NCBI GenBank assembly: GCA_019352035.1
Contig: JABBNZ010000016.1
Location: 33,556-69,469 of the forward strand
Length of the DNA stretch: 35,914 bases
Reading direction: 5' to 3'
Origin: Pseudomonadota bacterium
Lineage (GTDB): Bacteria > Pseudomonadota > Gammaproteobacteria > Steroidobacterales > Steroidobacteraceae
Shown here: in pieces, positions 1,868-30,508 of the stretch
Numbering within the stretch: the stretch's first letter is position 1
Layout: each line of letters starts with the position of its first letter
Position numbers and translations under genes: made by a program
Notes under the pieces: generated by a model
The model's input: the letters and a program-made list of their open reading frames with translations, nothing else
Database searches by the model: none
What the model was told of the DNA's origin: nothing

Positions 1868-2650
1868 TCAGCCCGGGTTGCGGCCGAGATCGGCGAGCGC
1901 CCGCGCCTGCGCCGAGTTCGGGAAGTCGAGCTGCAGCCGCCGGGCGTAGAGCTCCGCATCGAGCGGGTCCTTCTGGGCCCGCGTCACCTTCACGGCCAGC
2001 AGCAGCAGATCCGGGGTGCCGTGATTGGAGGCGAGGAATGCATCGATCTCCTGCCGTGCCTGCGCGAGCTTGCCCTCGGAGTAATCGAGATCCGCGAGCT
2101 CCCACGCGGCCTGCCCGAAGTTGGGCCGTACCGCCAGAGCGTTTCTGAACATCTGCGCCGCCTCCACGTTCCGGTGGGCGGAGCGCAGGCAGATACCCGC
2201 ATTCTCGTACGCGAACTCCGGCGTCATGTAGAGCGGATTGTTGGCTGCCTCCGTGAAGATCTTCACGCCCTTGTCGATCCGGCCGACGCTGCAGAGGTAA
2301 ACCGCGTAGTTGTTCTGGTAATCGGGGTTCTTGGGCGCGAGCCGCAGCGCTTCGCGGAATTCCCGGTCGGCCTTCTTCGGCTCGCGCAGTCGGGCGAAAA
2401 GCAGGGCGCGAGCACTATGCACGTCCGGCGAGCCGGGGTTCTCCCGCAGTGCGCGATCGAGCGTCCTCTGCGCCACGGCGAGCTGGCCGCGGCGCATGAA
2501 AGCGATTCCGAGCTCCGTGTTGTAGATGGCGGCATTGTGGCGCTGCTGTATCGCCTGTTGATTCGCACAGCCTCCCAGGCCGCCCGCGAGCAGCGCGGCG
2601 CCCATCACGGCGGCAGCGACGCCAGATTTATTCCGCGTCGGCCGGGTCAC
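1868..2650 (-). CDS. pilW: Type IV pilus biogenesis lipoprotein PilW/PilF (TPR)
   Basis: A 260-residue outer-membrane lipoprotein of the PilW/PilF family, needed in relatives for assembly and stability of the PilQ secretin in type IV pili. The N-terminus has a short basic stretch, a hydrophobic core and a lipobox LGGC with the acylated cysteine at residue 28. The rest is a series of tetratricopeptide repeats from about residue 40 onward, for example the repeat containing [18 protein letters not shown]. The start codon overlaps the end of rlmN by 4 bp (ATGA), indicating coupled translation, and rodZ follows after 5 bp. The same order occurs in Pseudomonas-type genomes. No other pilus genes are here. 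Confidence 0.93.
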
Positions 2651-3771
2651 GCCCGCACCGCCACGCCGATCACCCGGCTGCCGAGCCGCACCGTCGTGCG
2701 ATCGATGACCCGCCCGGCGAGCTGCCCACAGGCCGCATCGATGTCATCGCCCCGGGTACGGCGCACCGTGGCCAGCACCCCGCGGCGGATCAGCTCATCC
2801 CGGAAGCGTTGCACCGCTTCCGGCGCGGAGCGGCCGTACCGGGTGCCCGGAAAGGGGTTGAACGGAATGAGGTTGACCTTCGCGGGATGCCCCGCGAGGA
2901 GACGGGCGAGAGCTCGCGCCTGCGCGGGCGAGTCGTTGACGCCGTCGAGCATGACGTACTCGAAGGTGACGCTGCGGCCGTTCTGCTCGTCGATGTAGTG
3001 CCAGCAGGCCTCGAGCAGCTCCGCGATCGGATGCCGGCGATTGATCGGGACCAGCTCGTTGCGCAGCTCGTCATCGGGCGCGTGCAAAGAGACGGCGAGC
3101 GCCACGTTGCTGTGCTCAGCGAGCTTGTAGATCTGGGGGACGAGCCCCGAGGTCGACAGTGTCACGCGCCGGCGCGACAGGTCGAAGCCGAAGTCATCGA
3201 GAAAGATCTCGAGCGCCGGCACCACGTTGCGGAAGTTGGCGAGCGGCTCGCCCATGCCCATCAGGACGACATTGGTCACGATGCGCTCGCGGGCGCAGTC
3301 ATGCGCGAAGGAGCCTTCGAGCTCGCGGTTGGCCAGCCACACCTGGCCCACGATCTCCGCCGTGGTGAGGTTGCGGTTGAACCCCTGTTGCGCCGTCGAG
3401 CAGAACGAGCAGTCGAGCGCACAGCCGACCTGCGAGGAGATGCAGAGGGTGCCGCGGTCCGCCTCCGGGATGAAGACCATCTCGAAAGCCTGGGACGAAT
3501 CGGCCCGCAGCAGCCATTTGCGCGTGCCGTCGGCGGACTGCTGCGAGGTGACGATCTCAGGCGTGGCGATGCAGGCGCGCTCGGCGAGCCGGGCGCGGAA
3601 GTCCTTGGCCAGGTCCGTCATGCGCTCGAACGAGGACTCGCCGCGCTTGTAGACCCAGTTCATGAGCTGCCGCGCGCGGAAGGGCTTGCTCCCGAGCTCC
3701 GCCACGAACGACTCGAGCGCCGGACGCGGCAGCCCGAGCAGATTCGTCGCGGTCGTCTCGGGGAGGCTCAT
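2647..3771 (-). CDS. rlmN: Dual-specificity 23S rRNA/tRNA adenine-C2 methyltransferase RlmN
   Basis: A radical-SAM enzyme that methylates C2 of adenosine in 23S rRNA (A2503 in E. coli) and in some tRNAs. The product is 374 residues, a usual length. The iron-sulfur motif CX3CX2C is present as C117, C121 and C124 (GCALDCSFC). A conserved C-terminal cysteine near residue 348 (DAACGQLAG) matches the methyl-carrying cysteine. Other family signatures are [12 protein letters not shown] and [11 protein letters not shown]. The ATG at 3771 (MSLPETT) is preferred over a longer upstream extension that would run towards ndk and has no family resemblance. It overlaps pilW by 4 bp and follows ndk by 16 bp, so it is in the same operon. 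Confidence 0.96.
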
Positions 3772-3787
3772 GGCGCAGTTGCGCGGC

Positions 3788-4216
3788 TCAGCCGCGCGAA
3801 TGCAGCTCCGTGCCGCTGAAGAAGTAGGCGATCTCCTGGGCCGCCGTGTCCGGTGCATCCGAGCCGTGGACGACGTTCTGCTCGATGCTGAGCGCGAGAT
3901 CGGCGCGGATGGTGCCCGGAGCGGCCTTCTTCGGATCGGTGGCGCCCATGATCTCGCGGTTGCGCGCGATGGCGTTCTCGCCCTCGAGCACCTGCACGAT
4001 CACCGGACCCGAGGTCATGTAGCGCACCAGGTCCTTGTAGAACGGGCGCTCGCGGTGAACGGCGTAGAAACCCTCGGCCTCGCGCTCGGAGAGACGCAGC
4101 ATGCGGGCGGCAATGATGGTGAGGCCCGCCTTCTCGAAGCGGCGATAGACTTCGCCGATGAGATTGCGGCCGACGCCGTCGGGCTTGACGATGGACAGGG
4201 TGCGCTCGAGCGCCAT
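3788..4216 (-). CDS. ndk: Nucleoside diphosphate kinase
   Basis: Transfers the gamma phosphate between nucleoside tri- and diphosphates through a phosphohistidine intermediate, balancing NTP and dNTP pools. At 142 residues it has the standard length. The active-site histidine is H117 in NVVHGSDAP; the N-terminus [12 protein letters not shown] is typical. A ribosome site AAAGGA lies about 8 bases before the ATG. It is the first gene of the ndk-rlmN-pilW-rodZ-hisS run. The 231 bp upstream, to the end of iscA, hold no gene and presumably contain the operon promoter, although I found no convincing -35/-10 pair there. Confidence 0.97.
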
Positions 4217-4447: not shown

Positions 4448-4771
4448 TTACACGTTGAAACTCTCTCCGCAGCCGCACTCGCCCTTGACGTTGGGGTTGC
4501 GGAAGCGGAATGCCTCGTTGAGGCCCTGCTTGACGAAGTCCACCGTGGTGCCGTCGATCAGCGGCAGGCTCTCCAGATCGACGCAGACCTTCACCCCCCG
4601 GTCCTCGAACACCAGGTCGCCGGCGTGGATCTCCTCGGCATAATTGACCACGTACGCGAAGCCCGAGCAGCCGGTCTTGCGCACCCCGAGGCGCAGGCCG
4701 ACGCCGTGCCCGCGCGCGGCAAGGAACGTCTTGATGCGGTTGGCGGCGGATTCTGTTAGCGAGATGGCCAT
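4448..4771 (-). CDS. iscA: Iron-sulfur cluster assembly protein IscA
   Basis: A-type Fe-S carrier of 107 residues, the same length as E. coli IscA. The three metal-binding cysteines are present: C35 (TGCSGFAY) and C99/C101 (ECGCGESF). The stretches [13 protein letters not shown] and [13 protein letters not shown] are close to IscA rather than ErpA or SufA, and the position right after the cysteine desulfurase supports IscA. It lies 9 bp downstream of the desulfurase fusion gene, so the two are probably co-transcribed. The genes that normally follow in isc operons (hscB, hscA, fdx, iscX) are missing; the next gene is ndk. An ErpA-like role after loss of the rest of the pathway is possible. Confidence 0.93.
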
Positions 4772-4780
4772 GGAGGGATT

Positions 4781-6319
4781 TTACTCCGGCTCGGGCCAGT
4801 GCCGGGCACAGTCCGCGAGCGCATCTTCGACCGCCAGCAGGCGTCCGAGTTTCTCGACGGGGACGGCAAACGCATCGGCCCACTCGACCGGCGTCCCCGG
4901 CGCCAGCTCCGCGCGGCTCCGGCCACGCAGCCGCTCGGCCACCCAGGCGGTAACAGCCACAGTATGGGGACAGCCGTAGGCTTTGAACAGTGCGCTCTTC
5001 ACGGTGCCCTCCCGTACGGCAAGCCTGAACCGGACCCAGACCTCCTGTCCCGGGCCTCCGGCTTCCCCCAGGGCCTCGCCCAGGCTGGCTTTTGCGGGCT
5101 CTGACGCAGGCGATAGCGCCCGCAGACGCGTGACCTCCCGACGTATGGCATCCACAGCGAGATCGATGTGCTCCGGGAGGCTGAACCGCCCATAACTCAG
5201 GCGCAACGTGCTCTGGGCCAGCTGCGTGTCCCTGCCCAGAGCGCGCAGCACATACGAGGGCTCCCCCGACGCGGAATTGCACGCGGATCCCGTGGAGAGC
5301 GCCAGCTCGCGCAGCCCCATGACCAGGCTCTCGCCCTCGATACCCTCGAAAGACACGCTGAGGATGCCCGGGACGCAGGGGGCGCCCTCCCCGTTCGCGT
5401 GGGCCCCGCCTAGGGTTGAGAGGCCCCTCCACAGCCGCTCCCGCAAGCCGTCAAGCCGCGCCCGCTCGGCAGACAGGACCCGCAAGGCAAGATCGCAGGC
5501 CACGCCGAAGCCTACGATCTGGTGGGTCGGGAGAGTTCCGGGCCGCAGCCCCCTTTCCTGTCCGCCGCCGAAGACGATCGGCTGCAGGTGTGCACGAGCT
5601 TCGCTGCGTACGTAGAGCGCTCCGATGCCCTTCGGGCCGTAGAGCTTGTGCGCCGTGAGGGACATGAAATCGAGCGGCAGGGTCCGGACATCGATCGGGA
5701 TCTTGCCGGCCGCCTGCGCGGCGTCGGTGTGAAAGAGCACCCCGCGCGACCGGCACAGCGCGCCGATCGCGGCGGCATCCTGGATCACGCCAATCTCGTT
5801 GTTGACGAGCATGATCGACACCAGCACCGTATCCGGGCGCAGAGCGGCCGCGACCGCTTGCGCATCGATGCGCCCGCTGCGGTCCGGCGACAGCAGCGTG
5901 ATCGCGAAGCCTTCCTTCTCGAGCCGCTTCACGGGGTCGAGCACGGCCTTGTGCTCGATCCGCGAGCTCACGATGTGCCTTCCCCGATGCGCATTGGCGC
6001 GCGCCGCGCCGAGGACGGCCAGGTTGTTGGACTCCGTGGCGCCGGAGGTGAAGACGATGTCCCCGGCCGCGGCGCCGATGAGCGCCGCGACCTCGGCACG
6101 CGCGCGCTCGATCCGCTCGGCGGCGCGGCGGCCGAAAGGATGCGCGGCCGAAGAGGCATTGCCGAGTCCATCGGGACCGGTCAGGCACCGCCCCACCGCC
6201 TCGGCCACGGCAGGATCCACGGGCGTGGTGGCGGCATAGTCCAGATAGACCGGCTCGGGGACGTTGCGAGGCCCGGTCCCTGTGCCCTCTGAAACCCGCG
6301 ATCGCCAGTCGGAATTCAC
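4781..6319 (-). CDS. iscS: Cysteine desulfurase IscS fused to degenerate IscU-like domain
   Basis: Residues about 22-405 form an IscS-type PLP-dependent cysteine desulfurase that takes sulfur from cysteine for Fe-S cluster assembly and tRNA thiolation. The PLP lysine is K225 (LTAHKLYGPKG), H123 is conserved, and the persulfide cysteine is C347 (STGSACNSASGEPSYVLRALG region). Residues about 420-505 align with the scaffold IscU: the stretch SALFKAYGCPHTVAVTAWV matches the region around the second IscU cysteine, kept here as C450. The first IscU cysteine with its aspartate (ACGD) and the third (HC) are absent, so this domain should not hold a cluster as IscU does. The GTG start at 6319 has no clear ribosome site and is uncertain. 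Length is 512 residues against about 404 for normal IscS. Position matches an iscS-iscU-iscA order collapsed into one gene. Confidence 0.93.
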   Translation of the reverse strand: MNSDWRSRVSEGTGTGPRNVPEPVYLDYAATTPVDPAVAEAVGRCLTGPDGLGNASSAAHPFGRRAAERIERARAEVAALIGAAAGDIVFTSGATESNNLAVLGAARANAHRGRHIVSSRIEHKAVLDPVKRLEKEGFAITLLSPDRSGRIDAQAVAAALRPDTVLVSIMLVNNEIGVIQDAAAIGALCRSRGVLFHTDAAQAAGKIPIDVRTLPLDFMSLTAHKLYGPKGIGALYVRSEARAHLQPIVFGGGQERGLRPGTLPTHQIVGFGVACDLALRVLSAERARLDGLRERLWRGLSTLGGAHANGEGAPCVPGILSVSFEGIEGESLVMGLRELALSTGSACNSASGEPSYVLRALGRDTQLAQSTLRLSYGRFSLPEHIDLAVDAIRREVTRLRALSPASEPAKASLGEALGEAGGPGQEVWVRFRLAVREGTVKSALFKAYGCPHTVAVTAWVAERLRGRSRAELAPGTPVEWADAFAVPVEKLGRLLAVEDALADCARHWPEPE

Positions 6320-6446: not shown

Positions 6447-7193
6447 TCACGGCCGGTCCGGGAAGGAGCCTGCCCGCCGCCGGCGGCTCTGCACCGCAGT
6501 CAGGATGCCCCGCAGGATGTTGACTTCGTTGCGATCGAGCGCAGCGCGCTGAAACAGCCGGCGCAGCCGCCCCATGAGATGCGTTCCGCCCTGGGTGCGG
6601 TCACGGAAGTCGATCTCCTCCAACACCTGGGCCAGGTGCTCGTAAAGCCTGCCCATTTCCGCCGGATCGGCGAGGGGACCCGCGGAAGGCGCCGGATCGA
6701 TCGGGACGCCCCGAGCGAGGAAGAGCTCGTAGGTCACGATCTGCACCGCCATGGCGAGGTTGAGCGATGGATAGGACTCGCTCGCCGGAATCCGGATCAG
6801 GAGGTGCGCGGCCTCGAGCTGCTCGTTGCTGAGACCCGCGCGCTCCGAGCCGAAGAGCACCGCCGCCGGACCCCGCCGCGATTCATGCAGCACCCGCTGC
6901 GCCGCATCGCGTACGTCCGCCACGCGGAAATACTGGTCTCGCGTCCGTGAGGTCGTGGCCAGGATGAGGCCGCAGCCGGCGACCGCTTCCTCGACGGTTG
7001 CGACGACGCGAGCGTTCGCCAGCACATCGTCCGCCCCGGAAGCGCGGGCGATCGCCTCGCTGTGCGGGAACTGGCGCGGATTGACCAGCACCAGCCGCTC
7101 CAGCCCCATGTTCTTCATGGCGCGGGCGACCGCCCCGATGTTTCCGGGGTGCGAGGGCTCGACGAGAACGATGCGGATATCAGGTTGATCCAT
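6447..7193 (-). CDS. trmJ: tRNA (cytidine/uridine-2'-O-)-methyltransferase TrmJ
   Basis: SPOUT-family enzyme that 2'-O-methylates nucleotide 32 in the anticodon loop of tRNAs. It has 248 residues, a usual length. Typical motifs are IRIVLVEPSHPGNIGAVARA at the N-terminus, AAVLFGSERAGLSNEQL in the middle and SLNLAMAVQIVTYEL, which forms the knotted SAM-binding site. The C-terminal RDRTQGGTHLMGRLRRLF region is also typical. The ATG at 7193 has no ribosome site; only 23 bp separate it from the divergent suhB start. Neighbours suhB and the isc genes are those seen in Pseudomonas, although cysE is missing here. Confidence 0.95.
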   Translation of the reverse strand: MDQPDIRIVLVEPSHPGNIGAVARAMKNMGLERLVLVNPRQFPHSEAIARASGADDVLANARVVATVEEAVAGCGLILATTSRTRDQYFRVADVRDAAQRVLHESRRGPAAVLFGSERAGLSNEQLEAAHLLIRIPASESYPSLNLAMAVQIVTYELFLARGVPIDPAPSAGPLADPAEMGRLYEHLAQVLEEIDFRDRTQGGTHLMGRLRRLFQRAALDRNEVNILRGILTAVQSRRRRAGSFPDRP

Positions 7194-13124: not shown

Positions 13125-15319
<2,195 letters not shown>

Positions 15320-22717: not shown

Positions 22718-24052
22718 CTAGGCCCTCGATCCGGCCGGCTTGCGGGCCCGCGACTCGAACAACACGATGTCGCCCGGCGCATTGGATGCGGCGATGCAGT
22801 TGCGGCCCGTGGACTTCGCCCGGTAGAGCGCGGCGTCGGCGCCGGCGATGAGATCCTCCGTTCGCTCGCCATCCTGCGGATAGCAGGCGATCCCGAGGGA
22901 GGCGGTGATGCGCGGCAACGCGATGCCGCGTGAGAACACGTGCAGCTGCGCAATCGCTTCGCGAATCGCCTCTCCCTTGGAGTAGGCATCGTCGACGGCG
23001 CAGTCCGTCAGAACGACCAGAAATTCCTCGCCGCCATAGCGGCAGGCCACGTCCTCCGCGCGCGTATGGCGCTTCAGGACATGGGCGACGCCCCGCAGCA
23101 CCTCATCACCGGCATCGTGACCGTTGCTGTCGTTGAAGGCCTTGAAATGGTCGACATCGAGCATGATGAGGCTCAGGGGGAAGCCGTGCCGCTGTGCGCG
23201 GGCGAGCTCCCGCTGGAGCGAGATCTTCAGATGCCGGCGGTTGTACAGGTCGGTCAGCGGATCGCGCTCCGAGCCGCTGCGCAGCGTCTCCTGCAGCCGC
23301 AGATTTCCTACCGCGAGCGAGAGTTGCTCGGCAAGCGCCGAGGCCAGCCGCTGCACGTCCTCCGTGAGTCGCTCCGCCCGCGCCTGGCGCAGGTGCAGCA
23401 CCGCCAGGGTGTCCCCCTGCGAGACGAGGGGCACGCACAGGCAGGTGTCCCCGCACTCTCCGATGTGACGGCAGACCGCGGCGGCACTCGCCGGCTCGTA
23501 GAGGTGCGGCCGCCCCCGGCGCAATGCCCAGCAATCCTCCGGTGAGAAAGTCTGTGTTGCATCGAGAGCGCCCCAGCTGACTTGCAGCTCGAGCGCCGCA
23601 TCGTCGCGTCGTGAGACATACAGTGCGCCGCCGACGCCCGGCAGCAGCTTGGGCAGCGCGCCGTGAATCACCGTGTTCGCCTCGGCCTGCGAGTGACAGG
23701 TCTGCAGCAGCTCCACCATGGTGCTCACGGTGGAGATCTCCTGCAGCAGCCGCGTCTGGCGCCGGATGGTGCCCTGCAAAGCCGATTCGCGGCGGCGGCT
23801 GGCAATGGCCTGGAGGAGGATGAGCGCGGCGAGGACCACTGCGAGCCCGAAAAGCGCAGTCAGCGCGATCACCGTTCCATGGAGGGCTGCGCCGGAACCG
23901 CGGAGCGCGCCGCGGCCACGGCTCAGCGCGACAGCGGCCGCCGCCAGCAGGCCCAGCGCCGCGCAGGCTGCGATCGTGCCGATGAGCAGAGACTGCCGGA
24001 CGCGGTCCGCCGACCGCGCCGGAAGATCGCTCTTCTCGAGCCCGGACACCAT
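22718..24052 (-). CDS. GAF-GGDEF diguanylate cyclase, membrane bound
   Basis: Makes cyclic di-GMP from two GTP. It has 444 residues: two membrane segments (about 21-43 and 57-84), a cytosolic GAF-like sensor (about 105-255) and a GGDEF domain (about 260-425). The active-site motif is GGEEF at 340-344 and the inhibitory I-site RAED is at 331-334, five residues before it, so product feedback is expected. The GAF domain carries five cysteines in a small region (C174, C194, C200, C204, C206), which might bind a metal or sense redox state. It is first in a run with the HEAT and PDZ genes. Both catalytic and regulatory residues look intact. Confidence 0.93.
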   Translation of the reverse strand: MVSGLEKSDLPARSADRVRQSLLIGTIAACAALGLLAAAAVALSRGRGALRGSGAALHGTVIALTALFGLAVVLAALILLQAIASRRRESALQGTIRRQTRLLQEISTVSTMVELLQTCHSQAEANTVIHGALPKLLPGVGGALYVSRRDDAALELQVSWGALDATQTFSPEDCWALRRGRPHLYEPASAAAVCRHIGECGDTCLCVPLVSQGDTLAVLHLRQARAERLTEDVQRLASALAEQLSLAVGNLRLQETLRSGSERDPLTDLYNRRHLKISLQRELARAQRHGFPLSLIMLDVDHFKAFNDSNGHDAGDEVLRGVAHVLKRHTRAEDVACRYGGEEFLVVLTDCAVDDAYSKGEAIREAIAQLHVFSRGIALPRITASLGIACYPQDGERTEDLIAGADAALYRAKSTGRNCIAASNAPGDIVLFESRARKPAGSRA

Positions 24053-25726: not shown

Positions 25727-26799
25727 CGCGATCCCCCCGCGCCGTTAGCGCCGAGTATCAGGAGCTGGGCGCCGCCGGCCCGGACAGCCGCGCCGGCGGT
25801 AGACGTCCCGGCGGAGCGCGGCGCGGGTGCCAGCACGAGCCGCCGCGCAACCGGGCTCACCGCGAGCGCCGTGCACCTGCCGCCGAGCGGCAGACCGCCG
25901 CCACCGACATAACTGATGAATGCCGTCATCCGAATCGCATCGAGCGCGGGCCCGTCACCGGCCATGAAGACGCCGCCCTTCCAGCCGCCGGGCCCCAGGG
26001 GATGGAACGCAAATACCGTCCGCAGGCTGGCGGCCCGCTCGATGGGCAGCCGAACGAAAGTGAAGCCCATGTCCTCGTCGACCACCAGCGCCTGACCATT
26101 GCCGCAGGCCACGAACAGGCGCCGCCCGACCGTGTCCATGGCGAGCCCGGTGGGCGCTGTGCAGCCGGAGAGCGGGATCGCTCCGTCGGACCTCATTCCG
26201 GCGGTCTGTATCGCGTCCAACTCGTGGTCGGCCGCGTTGGCCACGTACAGCATCCCGCGACCGCTGGCCGCCATCTGCTCCAGATGTCCGTGCAGATGCG
26301 CAACGCCCAGCGTCTTGCCGCTCTTGGGCTCGAGCCGGGCGACGGAATGACCGATGCGGCTCTCGACATACAGTGCATGCCCCACGCGGTCGTAGAGAAG
26401 CGCCGAAGGCTCGCCGTTGCGCAGAGCGATCGAAGTTTTGATCCGCAACGGCCGCAGCGCCACTATCAGCAGGCGCGCCGGCGACCTCGTCGCGACATAC
26501 AGAACTCCTCCATCATGTGCGGCTGCGGCAAGTCCGACCCCGGCGCCGGGCAGCTTCAATACCTTGCCGGGCTCTGCCGAAGCCGTACCGTATCTGCGCA
26601 GCTGCGCGCCGGCAGTCGCAAACACGTGCTTGCCGCCGGGACCGAACGCCAGGGCCTGCACGGGCGCCGCGCTGGTCAGCGCGATCCGTTGCAGCACGCG
26701 ATAGGGAAACTCGCCCGCCGCCGCAGCGAAGCTCGTCCCGAGCGCGGTCGCCGCCAGCAGGATGGCCCCGGCACGCGGCGCTCTGCCAGGTCTCATCAT
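25723..26799 (-). CDS. Secreted YncE-like beta-propeller protein
   Basis: A 358-residue exported protein with a signal peptide at about 1-27 (AILLAATALGTSFAAAAG). It then has regularly spaced repeats of 40-45 residues typical of a seven-bladed propeller: VQALAFGPGGKHVFATAG, GVLYVATRS, HALYVESRIGHSVARLEPKSG, GMLYVANAADHELDAIQ and RRLFVACGNGQALVVDED. It resembles the YncE/YVTN family of periplasmic proteins. The ATG at 26799 overlaps the stop of the binding-protein gene (ATGA), and its own stop overlaps the next start the same way. A role in holding or handing over the ligand in the periplasm is inferred from operon position. Confidence 0.82.
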   Translation of the reverse strand: MMRPGRAPRAGAILLAATALGTSFAAAAGEFPYRVLQRIALTSAAPVQALAFGPGGKHVFATAGAQLRRYGTASAEPGKVLKLPGAGVGLAAAAHDGGVLYVATRSPARLLIVALRPLRIKTSIALRNGEPSALLYDRVGHALYVESRIGHSVARLEPKSGKTLGVAHLHGHLEQMAASGRGMLYVANAADHELDAIQTAGMRSDGAIPLSGCTAPTGLAMDTVGRRLFVACGNGQALVVDEDMGFTFVRLPIERAASLRTVFAFHPLGPGGWKGGVFMAGDGPALDAIRMTAFISYVGGGGLPLGGRCTALAVSPVARRLVLAPAPRSAGTSTAGAAVRAGGAQLLILGANGAGGSR

Positions 26800-27977
26800 C
26801 GATTGGCTCCACCCGGCGCCAGTCCCGCGATCCGGTCCGCCGCCCGGACCTGCAACTGCCGCAACGGCAGATAGATGCCCTCGCGGCGCACGTCCTGCTG
26901 CCCCTCGCGGCTCAGAATGAACCTGAAGAACTCCCGCACGAGCGGCGGCAGAGCCGCTCCGGGGCGGCGATTGACATTGCCGTAGACGAGCCGGCTCAGC
27001 GGATACCTCGCGAGCGCGACGTTGGTGTAAGTCGGAGAGATCGCATCGGCGCCGCGGCCCACCGCGATGACCTTCACGGCCGAGTCGATGAACGCGAGGC
27101 CGGTATAGCCGATGCCGTCGGGATCGGCGGCCACGCGCCGGGCGATCGGGAACACCGTCCTGTCGAAGTGGATTGCGCGGCGCCAATGACCGCGCCGGCC
27201 GCCGGCGTCGAGCACGCGCTGCCGCACGAATTCCTCGAAGCCGTTCCACGGCGCGATGGCATACACGTGGACCGGCCGCTGCGCCCATTTGCCGGTCGCG
27301 CCGAGCTGTCCCCACGTGACCGCCGGCCGGTCCCCCCGCAGATGCGAGCGCGAGAGCGCGGCATCGAGTTGCCGCACACTGAGCTGCTTCACCGGGTTGC
27401 GGGGATTGACGATGATGGCGACGGCATCGAGGAAGCCGAACTGCCGGTACGAGCCGCCGCTGACGGGCACGCTCGTGGGATCGTAGCCGTACTTCGCGTG
27501 GAACGAGGCGAGATCCACGGGCCTGAGCTCCCGGGAGACGAAAGCGATGTCCACGCGGCCGTTGCGCAACGCATTCGCCGCGTCATCGCCCTCGAAGGGC
27601 GGCCCCAACATGAAATGCGCCTTCGGGTAGATCGTCGAGAACGAAGCGATCCACGAGCGCACCAGCCCCGGCAGCACGTCGGAGCACATGAGCCGCAAAG
27701 TACCGCCGAGATCACGGCTGTAGCGCGGCTTGAAAGCCGCGAGCTTCGGGTCCAGCGTCGGCTGCAGCACCTCCGGCGCCGGCAGTGCCCGCCCGACGCG
27801 CATGCCCTCCAGGTCCTGCGCTTTGGTCTGCGCAGGGTGGGTCGGCACGACCGGGAGCTGCCATTCGACCGTCGCGGGGGCGAAGTCCCGCGCCCCCGCG
27901 GCAAGAGGCGCCAGAGCGAGTCCGCACGCGGCCGCGGCGTAGGCAAGCCGCAAGCACACGGTGCGCGCGGGCTTCAT
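26796..27977 (-). CDS. PstS-like periplasmic substrate-binding protein
   Basis: A 393-residue exported protein with a signal peptide at about 1-29. The body matches the PBP-like (PstS-type) domain: LGGTLRLMCSDVLPGLVRSW, FEGDDAANALRNGRVDIAFVSRE, and FGFLDAVAIIVNPRNPVKQL. Phosphate-binding PstS proteins use GSTTV/SGxG loops; here the first loop reads GGTLRLMCSD, so the ligand may not be phosphate. There is no lipobox and no ABC-transporter gene nearby. It overlaps the receptor gene by 4 bp (ATGA). It probably takes the imported ligand in the periplasm, or carries it to a transporter encoded elsewhere. Confidence 0.82.
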   Translation of the reverse strand: MKPARTVCLRLAYAAAACGLALAPLAAGARDFAPATVEWQLPVVPTHPAQTKAQDLEGMRVGRALPAPEVLQPTLDPKLAAFKPRYSRDLGGTLRLMCSDVLPGLVRSWIASFSTIYPKAHFMLGPPFEGDDAANALRNGRVDIAFVSRELRPVDLASFHAKYGYDPTSVPVSGGSYRQFGFLDAVAIIVNPRNPVKQLSVRQLDAALSRSHLRGDRPAVTWGQLGATGKWAQRPVHVYAIAPWNGFEEFVRQRVLDAGGRRGHWRRAIHFDRTVFPIARRVAADPDGIGYTGLAFIDSAVKVIAVGRGADAISPTYTNVALARYPLSRLVYGNVNRRPGAALPPLVREFFRFILSREGQQDVRREGIYLPLRQLQVRAADRIAGLAPGGANR

Positions 27978-30508
27978 TGAAAGTACGCCCGGGCGGACAA
28001 GGTGAACATGCGCGGATTGCCCGGCAGCAGATTGATATCGCCGTTGAAGCCGGAGCTGGCGTAGTACGTCTTGTCGAACACGTTCTGCACCTTGAACGTG
28101 AGCGTGTAATCACCCACGTCGTAATAGAGCGCCGTATCTACCCGCGTATAGGCCGGCAGGTGCAGCATCGGAACGGTGCTGCCCGTGGGCAGGAAGCCCT
28201 GACGCTCCCCCTCGTGGATGATGCCGAGACCCCATCCCAGACCGTGCAGCCCGCGCGTCGTGAACTGATACCGCGACCACAGGTGCTCGGCCATCAGCGG
28301 CACGTTGGGCTCGCGGGCGCCCACCTGCGCCGCGACGGTCGATGAGGTGACCTTGGCGTCGGTGTACGCCGCGCCGGCGGTCAGCTGCCAGTTGCGCAGC
28401 GGCCGGGCGTTGACCTCGAATTCCGCGCCCTTGGACTGGGCGGCGCCGACCTGCTGGTAACAGGTGCCGTAGTCCGCGCAGGCGAAATGACTGACCGTGT
28501 TCTTCTCGTCGATCCTGTAGAGCGCGAGCGTGGAGTTCAGGCGGCCGTGCAGGAAGGTGTCCTTCTCGCCCACCTCGATCTGGTTGGCCGAGATCGGCAC
28601 CAGGTCATTGACGCCGTTGATGTCGACGGCATTGGGCGGCGGGGGCACGTAGGAGGTGGCGTAGCTCGCGTAGAGACTCCAGTGCTTGTCGGGCTGGTAG
28701 ACGATTCCGCCCATCGGCAGCGGTTTCTCATTCACCTTCACGGCCTCGGGCGAGCCGGGCGTGCTCAGCACGCGGGTCCACTGCTTGTCGCGCGAGTAGC
28801 GAATGCCGACACTGCCCTTCCAGTGAGGGGAGAAGGTGATCATGTCGGCCATGTAGGCGCCGAACTCCTCCGTCACCGTGTAGCGGTCGCTGAGCAGCGA
28901 TGCCTTGCCCGGCGCGACCAGCGGCAGGCTGGAGAGCGGCGGCACGTTGCTGTAGTCCGGATTGTAGATACCGATGTTGAGCGAGTCCGGCCCGCTCGCC
29001 GGCGCGTTGAAGAACTGCAGCCGGTTCTCGTCCGCCATGGTGCGCCCGTCGGTGAGGCCGACCAGCATCTGCTGCTTGATGCCGAGCAGGTCGAGGGGCA
29101 TGAGAACGTGGGCGTCGATGTAGTGATTGCTCCTTCGGTTGAGCTGCCCCCGCGCCCGGCGAGTCACGTCCTGCAGGTTCTTCGCGATCGCGACCACGTC
29201 GAAGCCGTGCGCCTCGTCCGTGTGCCAGACGTCGCGCGTGGCGACGTGCAGGGAGAATCCGTTGGCGAAGGTGTGCACGAAGAACGAGCTGAGGACGCTG
29301 CCGCGCTCGGTCTCGTAGTCGCTCGGCTGCTGGTAGCGGGTGGTGATGGGCGCCACCAGGGAGATGTTGCTGTCGGGCGCCACGAGGTAGGTGTCATAGC
29401 TGAAGCGCACGTGCTGGTACTGGTAAGCCAGCGTGAATTGGGTGCGATCGGAGATCCGCCAGGTGAAGCTCGGCGCGATGAACACGTTGCGGCTGTAGCC
29501 GAAGGCTCTGAACGTATCCTCGTTGGTATCGTCGGCGATCATGCGGTAGAGAAAATGCCGGTTGCCGGCGATCGGGCCGGTGGCATCCGCCGCCAGGTCG
29601 AATCCCGGCCTGTCGCCGACGCCGATCCCGTGACCGTCGTAGGCCTGCCCCGTGGCGGCGAGCTCGTAGAGCGGTTGCGCCCGCGGCTTCTTGGTGACGA
29701 GATTGATGAAGCCGCCGGGCTCTTCCTGTCCGTTGATGACCGAGGCGGGGCCGCGCACCACATCGATGCGCTCTACGCCGATGGTGGGCGGTGAGCCGAA
29801 GCGCGTGGCGAGACCCGGCAGACCGTCCACCAGGATGGAATTGATGTCGTTGGCGCCGCTCGTGAAGCCGCGGAACACGATGTCATAGCCTGTATTGCCC
29901 GCTCTCTGGATGCCGGTCATGTACGGGTAGAGCGAGGCGACCTGCTGCGCCTCGACCGCGTGCACGAAGCTCTGGGAGTACGTCGAGATGGAGAACGGCG
30001 TGTCGCGGGCCGGCAGATTCATCTTCATGGCGCTCGAGCCCGCCGCCGAGATGAATCGCGCCGAGACCACGATCGCCTTCAGCGCGGCGTTCTGCGGGGG
30101 CAGCTGCAGAGTGCCGCTCGCGGGCGCAGCGGCCGCGCCGCCGTCATTGGCGTCAGCCGATGGCGGGGGATCTGCCGCTGCGACGGCCGCCGGCCTGATG
30201 GCGATCGTGCGCTCGTTGACCTGTTGAAAGGTGTAGCCCGAGCCCTTCAGCAGCTGGACGAGCGCATCCTTCGGGTCCATGCGGCCCTTGAGCGGCCGGG
30301 TCCGCAGCCGCGCGAGCGCCTTGTAATCGAACAGCAGCTGCAGATGCGCCTGCGCGGCGAAGGCCTTGAGGGCGCTCGGCATCGGCTGCGCGGCGATGTC
30401 GAAGGATGCGGTATCCGCCCTGGCGAGGGCGGTGGGAGAAACGGCCAGCCACAGCGCCCCCAGCAGGGAAAGCCCGATGCCCAGCCACCAACGATCGACT
30501 CTTGCCAC
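27974..30508 (-). CDS. TonB-dependent receptor with STN signalling domain
   Basis: Outer-membrane transducer of 844 residues, similar in layout to FecA, FpvA and other siderophore receptors. There is a signal peptide (about 1-30) and an STN signalling domain (about 35-107: FDIAAQPMPSALKAFAAQA, then YTFQQVNERTIAIRP). A TonB-box-like AIVVSA is near residue 145, a plug domain (about 160-275, with SILVDGLPG and IDVVRGPASVINGQEEPGG) follows, and a 22-strand barrel fills the rest. The C-terminus is AYFQ, where an aromatic residue would be normal. The GTG start at 30508 is likely. The STN domain and the upstream fecI/fecR-like genes imply surface signalling. The ligand is unknown; ferric siderophore or another metal complex is the default guess. 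Confidence 0.93.
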   Translation of the reverse strand: MARVDRWWLGIGLSLLGALWLAVSPTALARADTASFDIAAQPMPSALKAFAAQAHLQLLFDYKALARLRTRPLKGRMDPKDALVQLLKGSGYTFQQVNERTIAIRPAAVAAADPPPSADANDGGAAAAPASGTLQLPPQNAALKAIVVSARFISAAGSSAMKMNLPARDTPFSISTYSQSFVHAVEAQQVASLYPYMTGIQRAGNTGYDIVFRGFTSGANDINSILVDGLPGLATRFGSPPTIGVERIDVVRGPASVINGQEEPGGFINLVTKKPRAQPLYELAATGQAYDGHGIGVGDRPGFDLAADATGPIAGNRHFLYRMIADDTNEDTFRAFGYSRNVFIAPSFTWRISDRTQFTLAYQYQHVRFSYDTYLVAPDSNISLVAPITTRYQQPSDYETERGSVLSSFFVHTFANGFSLHVATRDVWHTDEAHGFDVVAIAKNLQDVTRRARGQLNRRSNHYIDAHVLMPLDLLGIKQQMLVGLTDGRTMADENRLQFFNAPASGPDSLNIGIYNPDYSNVPPLSSLPLVAPGKASLLSDRYTVTEEFGAYMADMITFSPHWKGSVGIRYSRDKQWTRVLSTPGSPEAVKVNEKPLPMGGIVYQPDKHWSLYASYATSYVPPPPNAVDINGVNDLVPISANQIEVGEKDTFLHGRLNSTLALYRIDEKNTVSHFACADYGTCYQQVGAAQSKGAEFEVNARPLRNWQLTAGAAYTDAKVTSSTVAAQVGAREPNVPLMAEHLWSRYQFTTRGLHGLGWGLGIIHEGERQGFLPTGSTVPMLHLPAYTRVDTALYYDVGDYTLTFKVQNVFDKTYYASSGFNGDINLLPGNPRMFTLSARAYFQ

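Follow-up and report, generated by a model that had tools for sequence, protein, structure and literature searches.

An IscS desulfurase continuous with an IscU-like domain

On the minus strand of the window (the whole 35,914-nucleotide stretch of Steroidobacteraceae DNA analyzed here), a single 512-residue frame (6319-4781) encodes a complete IscS cysteine desulfurase followed by a C-terminal domain of IscU fold (Table 1). The original prediction, made from the DNA letters, had described IscS joined to an IscU-like domain that lost two of its three cluster cysteines, and this was confirmed: both parts lie in one frame, and the domain lacks the first IscU cysteine with its aspartate as well as the His-Cys pair, leaving only C450. 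The GCPHT motif around this residue is new relative to IscU.

The desulfurase part is IscS by domain and residues, though it falls under the equivalog cut-offs. PF00266 scored above its cut-off and the PLP lysine, His104, and Cys328 loop of the class V fold are intact; the best models, NF010611 and TIGR02006, both scored under their own cut-offs. Catalytic residues were intact wherever IscS parts could be aligned, and the position of Cys347 was cysteine in 85/85 fused rows counted (some genomes are repeated among these rows). As called, the IscS part begins with GTG, and its true start is uncertain. The IscS C-terminal tail beyond ...LSP, which contacts IscU, is absent, and the linker stands in its place. 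Of 25 genomes sampled in the genus, the window's genome included, 22 carry the junction within a single frame (the copy in G017 is on a partial contig), which rules out a sequencing or frame artifact. The exceptions were G009, where the locus is split across two contig ends, and G008 and G013, which gave no full locus.

Table 1. Features of the fusion locus and of the rest of the window
Feature	Position	Strand	Basis or remark
rlmN, downstream neighbor	2647..3858	-	named by sequence, without profile; overlaps ndk as called, start probably later
ndk, downstream neighbor	3788..4216	-	named by sequence, without profile
iscA, next gene, 10 bases downstream of fusion	4448..4771	-	TIGR02011 E 1.5e-44 (150.5 bits vs cut-off 150.6)
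Degenerate IscU-like domain, residues 415-512	4784..5077	-	order beta-beta-beta-alpha-alpha-alpha
PVEKLGR, residues 487-493	4841..4861	-	occupies site of IscU PPVKIHC; Lys103 kept, His105/Cys106 replaced by Gly/Arg
Cys450 (= E. coli IscU Cys63), sole IscU cysteine left, in GCPHT motif	4970..4972	-	alignments
Linker, about residues 405-414	5078..5107	-	IscS LWEM-type C-terminal tail and IscU N-terminal helix both missing
IscS cysteine desulfurase part, residues 1-404	5108..6319	-	NF010611 E 5.7e-151; Aminotran_5 E 1.2e-76; Foldseek to E. coli IscS 3lvm E 3.3e-44
Catalytic Cys347 (= E. coli IscS Cys328) in STGSACNSAS	5279..5281	-	invariant in alignment
trmJ-like SpoU methylase, upstream of iscS	6447..7193	-	PF00588 E 1.5e-31
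tgt and queA	13125-15319	-	ordinary-looking
GAF-GGDEF diguanylate cyclase	22718-24052	-	ordinary-looking
PBP-like protein beside TonB-dependent receptor	26796-30508	-	ordinary-looking

In a scan of public genomes, 97 relatives came up, and the best 80 loci were kept. These comprised 63 fused and 16 separate forms and 1 locus cut by a contig end, all from metagenome-assembled genome records labeled Gammaproteobacteria, Steroidobacteraceae, Proteobacteria, or Pseudomonadota, with one Rhodospirillales. Among these best 80 loci, iscA came next after the fused or degenerate iscU wherever there was room to see it (73/73), ndk followed iscA in 61/62 loci with room, and trmJ lay directly before iscS in 63/72; the E. 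coli order is trmJ-iscR-iscS. The proposal that iscU was absorbed by iscS is borne out by this shared gene slot, by the occurrence of both separate and fused states, and by fusions that still carry the IscU N terminus.

Assignment of the C-terminal domain

Profile matches, the predicted fold, and a graded series of relatives show that the C-terminal 98 residues descend from IscU. A search of the C-terminal residues against IscU profiles, one of the checks proposed at the outset, returned a NifU_N/IscU match (E 0.006 for the window's domain), and several separate degenerate copies match NifU_N over most of its length at far lower values (G039, 1.6e-21; G033, 1.4e-19; G027, 5.5e-19). Foldseek matches of the fusion domain include 4eb5, which we take to be an archaeal IscS-IscU complex. 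Chance similarity to IscU was ruled out by the profile and fold comparisons. By sequence profile and by fold, the domain thus belongs to the NifU_N/IscU family, but of the IscU ligand set Cys37, Asp39, Cys63, His105, and Cys106, Cys63 alone is kept, and VPVEK stands in place of the LPPVK chaperone motif.

By sequence, the fused domain is no SufE; nor is it SufU, and it is no longer an IscU scaffold, the defining ligands being missing. Both parts of the fusion derive from the pair IscU (TIGR01999) and IscS (TIGR02006), with the order iscS-iscU-iscA and the IscU fold retained; unlike that pair, the fusion is one chain, its IscU part has no Cys37, Asp39, His105, Cys106, or LPPVK, and searches of 40 relatives turned up neither HscB nor frataxin. 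The likeness to SufE and CsdE, the one-cysteine acceptors of group II desulfurases, is an inferred one of working, in that each is a small protein beside a desulfurase with a single acceptor cysteine; the fusion's partner, however, is IscS, a group I enzyme, and the cysteine kept is IscU Cys63. SufE has an IscU-like fold, and its Cys51 presumably corresponds to the IscU Cys37 site. Searched against Pfam and NCBIfam up to E 1, the C-terminal piece matched no SufE model, and SufE was not among the 50 matches listed by Foldseek or by VIA, though it could still lie beyond those listed. SufU (TIGR01994), which serves SUF as a zinc-dependent sulfur transfer protein, carries an insert and retains its cysteines, whereas the fused domain lacks two of three cysteines and keeps one; it scored 11.9 bits on TIGR01994 against a cut-off of 92.5. 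In NCBIfam, five separate copies from the order and one from the class matched scaffold models only, all below cut-offs, and no model for the degenerate form was seen. No title or abstract opening in the open-access literature searched described such a fusion, or an IscU with a single cysteine encoded next to iscS.

Ligand loss, fusion, and trimming

The original prediction implied that the cysteines were lost through fusion, and this part did not hold. Read from the aligned genes, the cluster ligands and chaperone motif were lost while iscU was still a separate gene beside iscS, and fusion came later: stand-alone degenerate copies show the same losses, and ligand loss therefore predates fusion. 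In 14 of 15 genomes from other families of the order, the gene immediately following iscS is a separate degenerate iscU. Thirteen of these 14 copies have cysteine at position 63 and one (G037) has asparagine; the 15th genome, G035, has a fusion without the cysteine.

Fusions also differ in how much of IscU they retain. The IscU N-terminal helix still lies between the two parts in L100, L103, L110, and L116, which branch close to the root of the fused clade that includes the window's protein, and in L112, which is off the tree, as well as in the fusions L118, L121, and L138. In the window's genus, L119, and L130, the helix has been trimmed to leave a short linker only. The fork that orders the basal helix-bearing fusions is not well supported. 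Parsimony on a tree built from 114 IscS parts requires 7 changes between the fused and separate states, and repeated fusion of degenerate iscU to iscS is likely from these sequences; a single fused clade was not rejected (AU p 0.169, on a quick tree with long branches). For intact versus degenerate IscU the same tree needs 2 changes, of which L195, a broken intact copy, accounts for one. Four loci, L193 (G059), L166 (G228), L025 (G039), and L028 (G031), are intermediates that lack Cys37 and have Cys63 plus a cysteine or His-Cys near positions 105-106. All stages can be found in living genomes: intact IscU, partial ligand loss, a one-cysteine IscU as a gene of its own, and fusions that either keep or lack the docking helix.

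From the class, 274 genomes were drawn, and the loci of 61 (besides the window's genome and G030), chosen by score and not at random, were inspected. Degenerate IscU was found in 29 of these, intact or three-cysteine IscU in 27, and only NifU, SufU, or a broken copy in 5. Most degenerate copies adjoin an iscS, but this linkage is not absolute. In G298 (L214, G298:C100, 4408-4779), the degenerate IscU carries proline as residue 63, and the surrounding 9.5 kb (about 4.4 kb each side) gave no match to iscS, iscA, or ndk. The expectation that the extension would match IscU profiles, and would not be found on desulfurases that never lay beside iscU, held for the fused forms; the G298 degenerate copy, away from iscS, is the exception. 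In G090, the degenerate copy starts right at the edge of a contig; downstream of it lie ndk and rlmN, but there is no iscA match. Two genomes (G107, L167; G237, L172) carry a distinct three-cysteine IscU with GCGW and APPEKLHC beside iscA; no HscB was found in either genome, and no iscS match in the fetched stretch.

Loss of ISC partners in genomes that encode SUF

The original prediction also called for a search for a separate iscU or suf genes, and no separate working iscU was found in the window's genome, which does encode SufU and SufB/D elsewhere. It has sufS, two SufB/D matches, and, beside sufS, a SufU with its three cysteines, of which a 116-residue piece scores 128.4 bits on TIGR01994, above the cut-off. 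A second working iscU was ruled out, the only other NifU_N match at E 0.1 being this SufU in the suf locus. SufBD was present in 40/40 relatives. Profile searches found HscB and frataxin in 0/40 relatives each, with E. coli controls positive for both. ISC and SUF are described as mutually exclusive, especially in Gammaproteobacteria (PMC10631705).

Within the class, HscB was present in 1/29 genomes with degenerate IscU compared to 19/27 with intact IscU (Fisher 9.6e-8, a value that is too small, as related genomes were treated as independent). The one HscB-positive genome with degenerate IscU, the distant G289, holds a fusion (L138/L176, G289:C2) whose one-cysteine IscU is full length and retains its N terminus. 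Near its hscB, the same genome has a second, intact iscS-iscU-iscA set (L213, G289:C11:8500-14500). Among the 8 genomes with intact IscU and no HscB are several small ones, as well as G107 and G237 with their unusual IscU. The IscS C-terminal tail was present beside 23/26 intact IscU copies (the other 3 were NifU-type) compared to 6/52 degenerate copies, with related genomes counted as independent.

Routes for sulfur delivery to tRNA were also surveyed. MnmA was found at 3.6e-66 or better in 35/40 relatives, including the window's genome (1.0e-70). TusA scored above cut-off in 5/40 relatives and was not found in the window's genome. A ThiI model scored above cut-off in 28/40, though never higher than 31.6 bits, and of the 31 rows, 29 lie on the MnmA gene, including that of the window's genome; by these profile matches, ThiI is taken as not found outside MnmA in the window's genome.

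Conservation of the remodeled cluster site

Conservation was counted after removal of repeats of the same genome, which left 145 of 187 loci; L131 (cut), L195, and L124 (repeat) were left out of the separate set. C450 was present in 65/67 distinct fused loci, the exceptions being L042 and L203, both outside the window's clade and both with IscS intact. In fusions with the cysteine, Lys103 was found in 64/65, Arg106 in 63/65, and H452 in 63/65, and Cys37, Asp39, His105, and Cys106 in 0/65 each. At least 95% identity was seen at 23 domain positions in these 65 distinct fusions, including C63, P64, H65, T66, P100, E102, K103, L104, G105, and R106. Across the alignments, then, the former cluster site is remodeled, yet it is among the domain's most conserved parts. 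Columns that contact IscS were not better kept than others in separate (0.46 versus 0.35, p 0.38) or fused (0.33 versus 0.28, p 0.66) copies.

Position 63 is more variable in separate degenerate copies, where it is cysteine in 33/51 and N (6), S (4), G (3), D (2), P (2), or T (1) in the remaining 18/51. Its neighbors are steadier, with Gly62 in 50/51 separate and 61/65 fused copies and Pro64 in 44/51 and 65/65. In the gammaproteobacterial loci L141/L179, L147, L165, L168, L169, L173, L174, L175, L185, L189-L191, L196, L198-L201, and L205, mostly iscS-iscU-iscA rows, the residue found where IscU has Cys63 is D, N, S, T, G, or P. In separate copies with versus without Cys63, a basic residue at 106 was found in 20/33 versus 0/18, Lys103 in 28/33 versus 4/18, and E102 in 20/33 versus 1/18; these counts rest on related sequences, and Fisher values for them are therefore too small. 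Supported branches offered only 3 independent pairs, so p 0.05 was unreachable, and the mean contrasts with and against the cysteine were 2.1/0.0 for K103, 1.4/0.0 for basic 106, 0.7/0.5 for E102, and 1.5/1.0 for H/Y65.

Estimates of selection were similar for the two parts of the protein. Median dN/dS was 0.281 for the domain and 0.272 for IscS in the 888 usable of 2080 pairs of distinct fusions (moderate divergence; the pairs are not independent), and 0.279 and 0.268 with repeats kept (1484 pairs), with values for the short domain scattering up to 0.91. By these codon comparisons, the domain is under purifying selection of about the same strength as IscS, and is therefore no dying remnant.

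A candidate cis sulfur relay and its rivals

Of special interest is what a one-cysteine IscU domain would do for the desulfurase to which it is bound. We tentatively favor, at a probability of roughly 45%, a reading in which the fused domain would be a cis-tethered one-cysteine sulfur acceptor, SufE-like in its working and built on an IscU fold. Cys347 of IscS would form a persulfide, the tethered domain would lie near Cys347 much as IscU docks on IscS, and Cys450 would take the sulfur in cis. R493, in place of the second cluster cysteine, could hold the persulfide anion from about 4 Å away if E. coli IscU is a guide, in which C63 and C106 are about 4 Å apart (PMC2854127). The sulfur would then pass to a client, with direct delivery for tRNA thiolation the first candidate because MnmA is present, TusA was not found, and no ThiI match lies outside MnmA. 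In E. coli IscU, K103E or removal of residues 1-12 abolishes IscS binding (PMC2854127). With both the IscS tail and this N-terminal segment gone, canonical docking is therefore doubtful without a tether, and the covalent link would replace the docking helix and IscS tail. Counting against a relay, 18/51 separate copies and 2/67 fusions were kept without the Cys63 thiol, the cysteine-less G298 copy is not beside iscS, the IscS tail that helps to hold IscU is missing, the IscS-contact columns show no extra conservation, and for E102 and H/Y65 some independent pairs run the opposite way.

The main rival, a serious one to which we give somewhat less credence, is that degenerate IscU acts without chemistry as a stabilizer or regulator of IscS, capping the docking surface, tuning the Cys loop, or supporting the dimer, with the cysteine retained and not essential. 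This would explain why the gene persists, usually next to an intact iscS, in lineages where Cys63 became N, S, G, D, P, or T, why two fusions lack the cysteine, and why the features common to most of the family are the fold, Gly62, and Pro64. A mere cap, however, needs no thiol, and the thiol is kept in 65/67 fusions; within the fused clade, Cys450 and its surroundings (CPHT, PxEKLGR) are among the most conserved residues of the domain. The suggestion in the original prediction that the remnant regulates or stabilizes the desulfurase may be right, but retention of the cysteine across the whole fused clade is at least as good an argument for chemistry. Residual metal chemistry, in which Cys450, His452, the mobile IscS Cys347, and neighboring IscA would hold iron or a transient cluster, is improbable. 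In the archaeal IscS-IscU complex, the desulfurase cysteine serves as an extra cluster ligand, and both the adjoining iscA (73/73 loci with room) and the retention of H452 (63/65 fusions) would suit such a role; against it stand the complete absence of Cys37, Asp39, His105, and Cys106 (0/65 each), the absence of HscB and frataxin from 40/40 relatives, and the presence of SUF with SufU.

Two further explanations are very unlikely. That the domain is a decaying iscU leftover, carried along by an accident of fusion, would fit the loss of ligands, chaperone motif, and N terminus and the further erosion seen in some lineages (L042, L203), but a median dN/dS of 0.281, like that of IscS, 23 positions at least 95% conserved in 65 fusions, and stand-alone copies kept in 14/15 other families sampled all run counter to it, and decay of the domain was rejected by the selection estimate. 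An equally slight chance is given to the domain being an adaptor only, which would bring IscS to another complex such as SufBCD or MnmA and not touch sulfur; MnmA is present in the window's genome, where TusA was not found and ThiI was not found outside MnmA, but the interaction itself is putative only.

An extension of the favored sulfur relay, speculative and rather unlikely in its full form, is that in a branch of Gammaproteobacteria IscU became a one-thiol carrier of IscS once SUF took over cluster assembly, was tied to IscS covalently, perhaps several times, and in this form may pass sulfur straight to MnmA for tRNA thiolation. The genomes concerned are mostly without TusA, and no separate ThiI was seen in them. 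No description of a relay from IscS through a fused or degenerate IscU to MnmA was found in the literature searched.

Implications for ISC annotation and evolution

Mycobacterium tuberculosis offers a parallel, with an eroded ISC operon, a complete SUF system, and IscS kept (PMC10848736). There, however, the operon is cut to iscS alone, and the abstract of that study describes no IscU-derived domain. Persistence of the fused domain under selection in the uncultured lineage studied here suggests a scaffold turned into a built-in partner of the desulfurase, a textbook protein caught changing its job. For annotation, a row of iscS-iscU-iscA is no proof of a working ISC system, as degenerate IscU occurs in at least 29 of 274 class genomes (loci of 61 inspected), and rows without Cys63 could be annotated as ISC systems despite the missing scaffold ligands. 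For structural studies, the fusion would also supply an IscS-IscU pair that is naturally fixed in one chain, and it would allow a direct check on whether IscU's middle cysteine can accept sulfur by itself.
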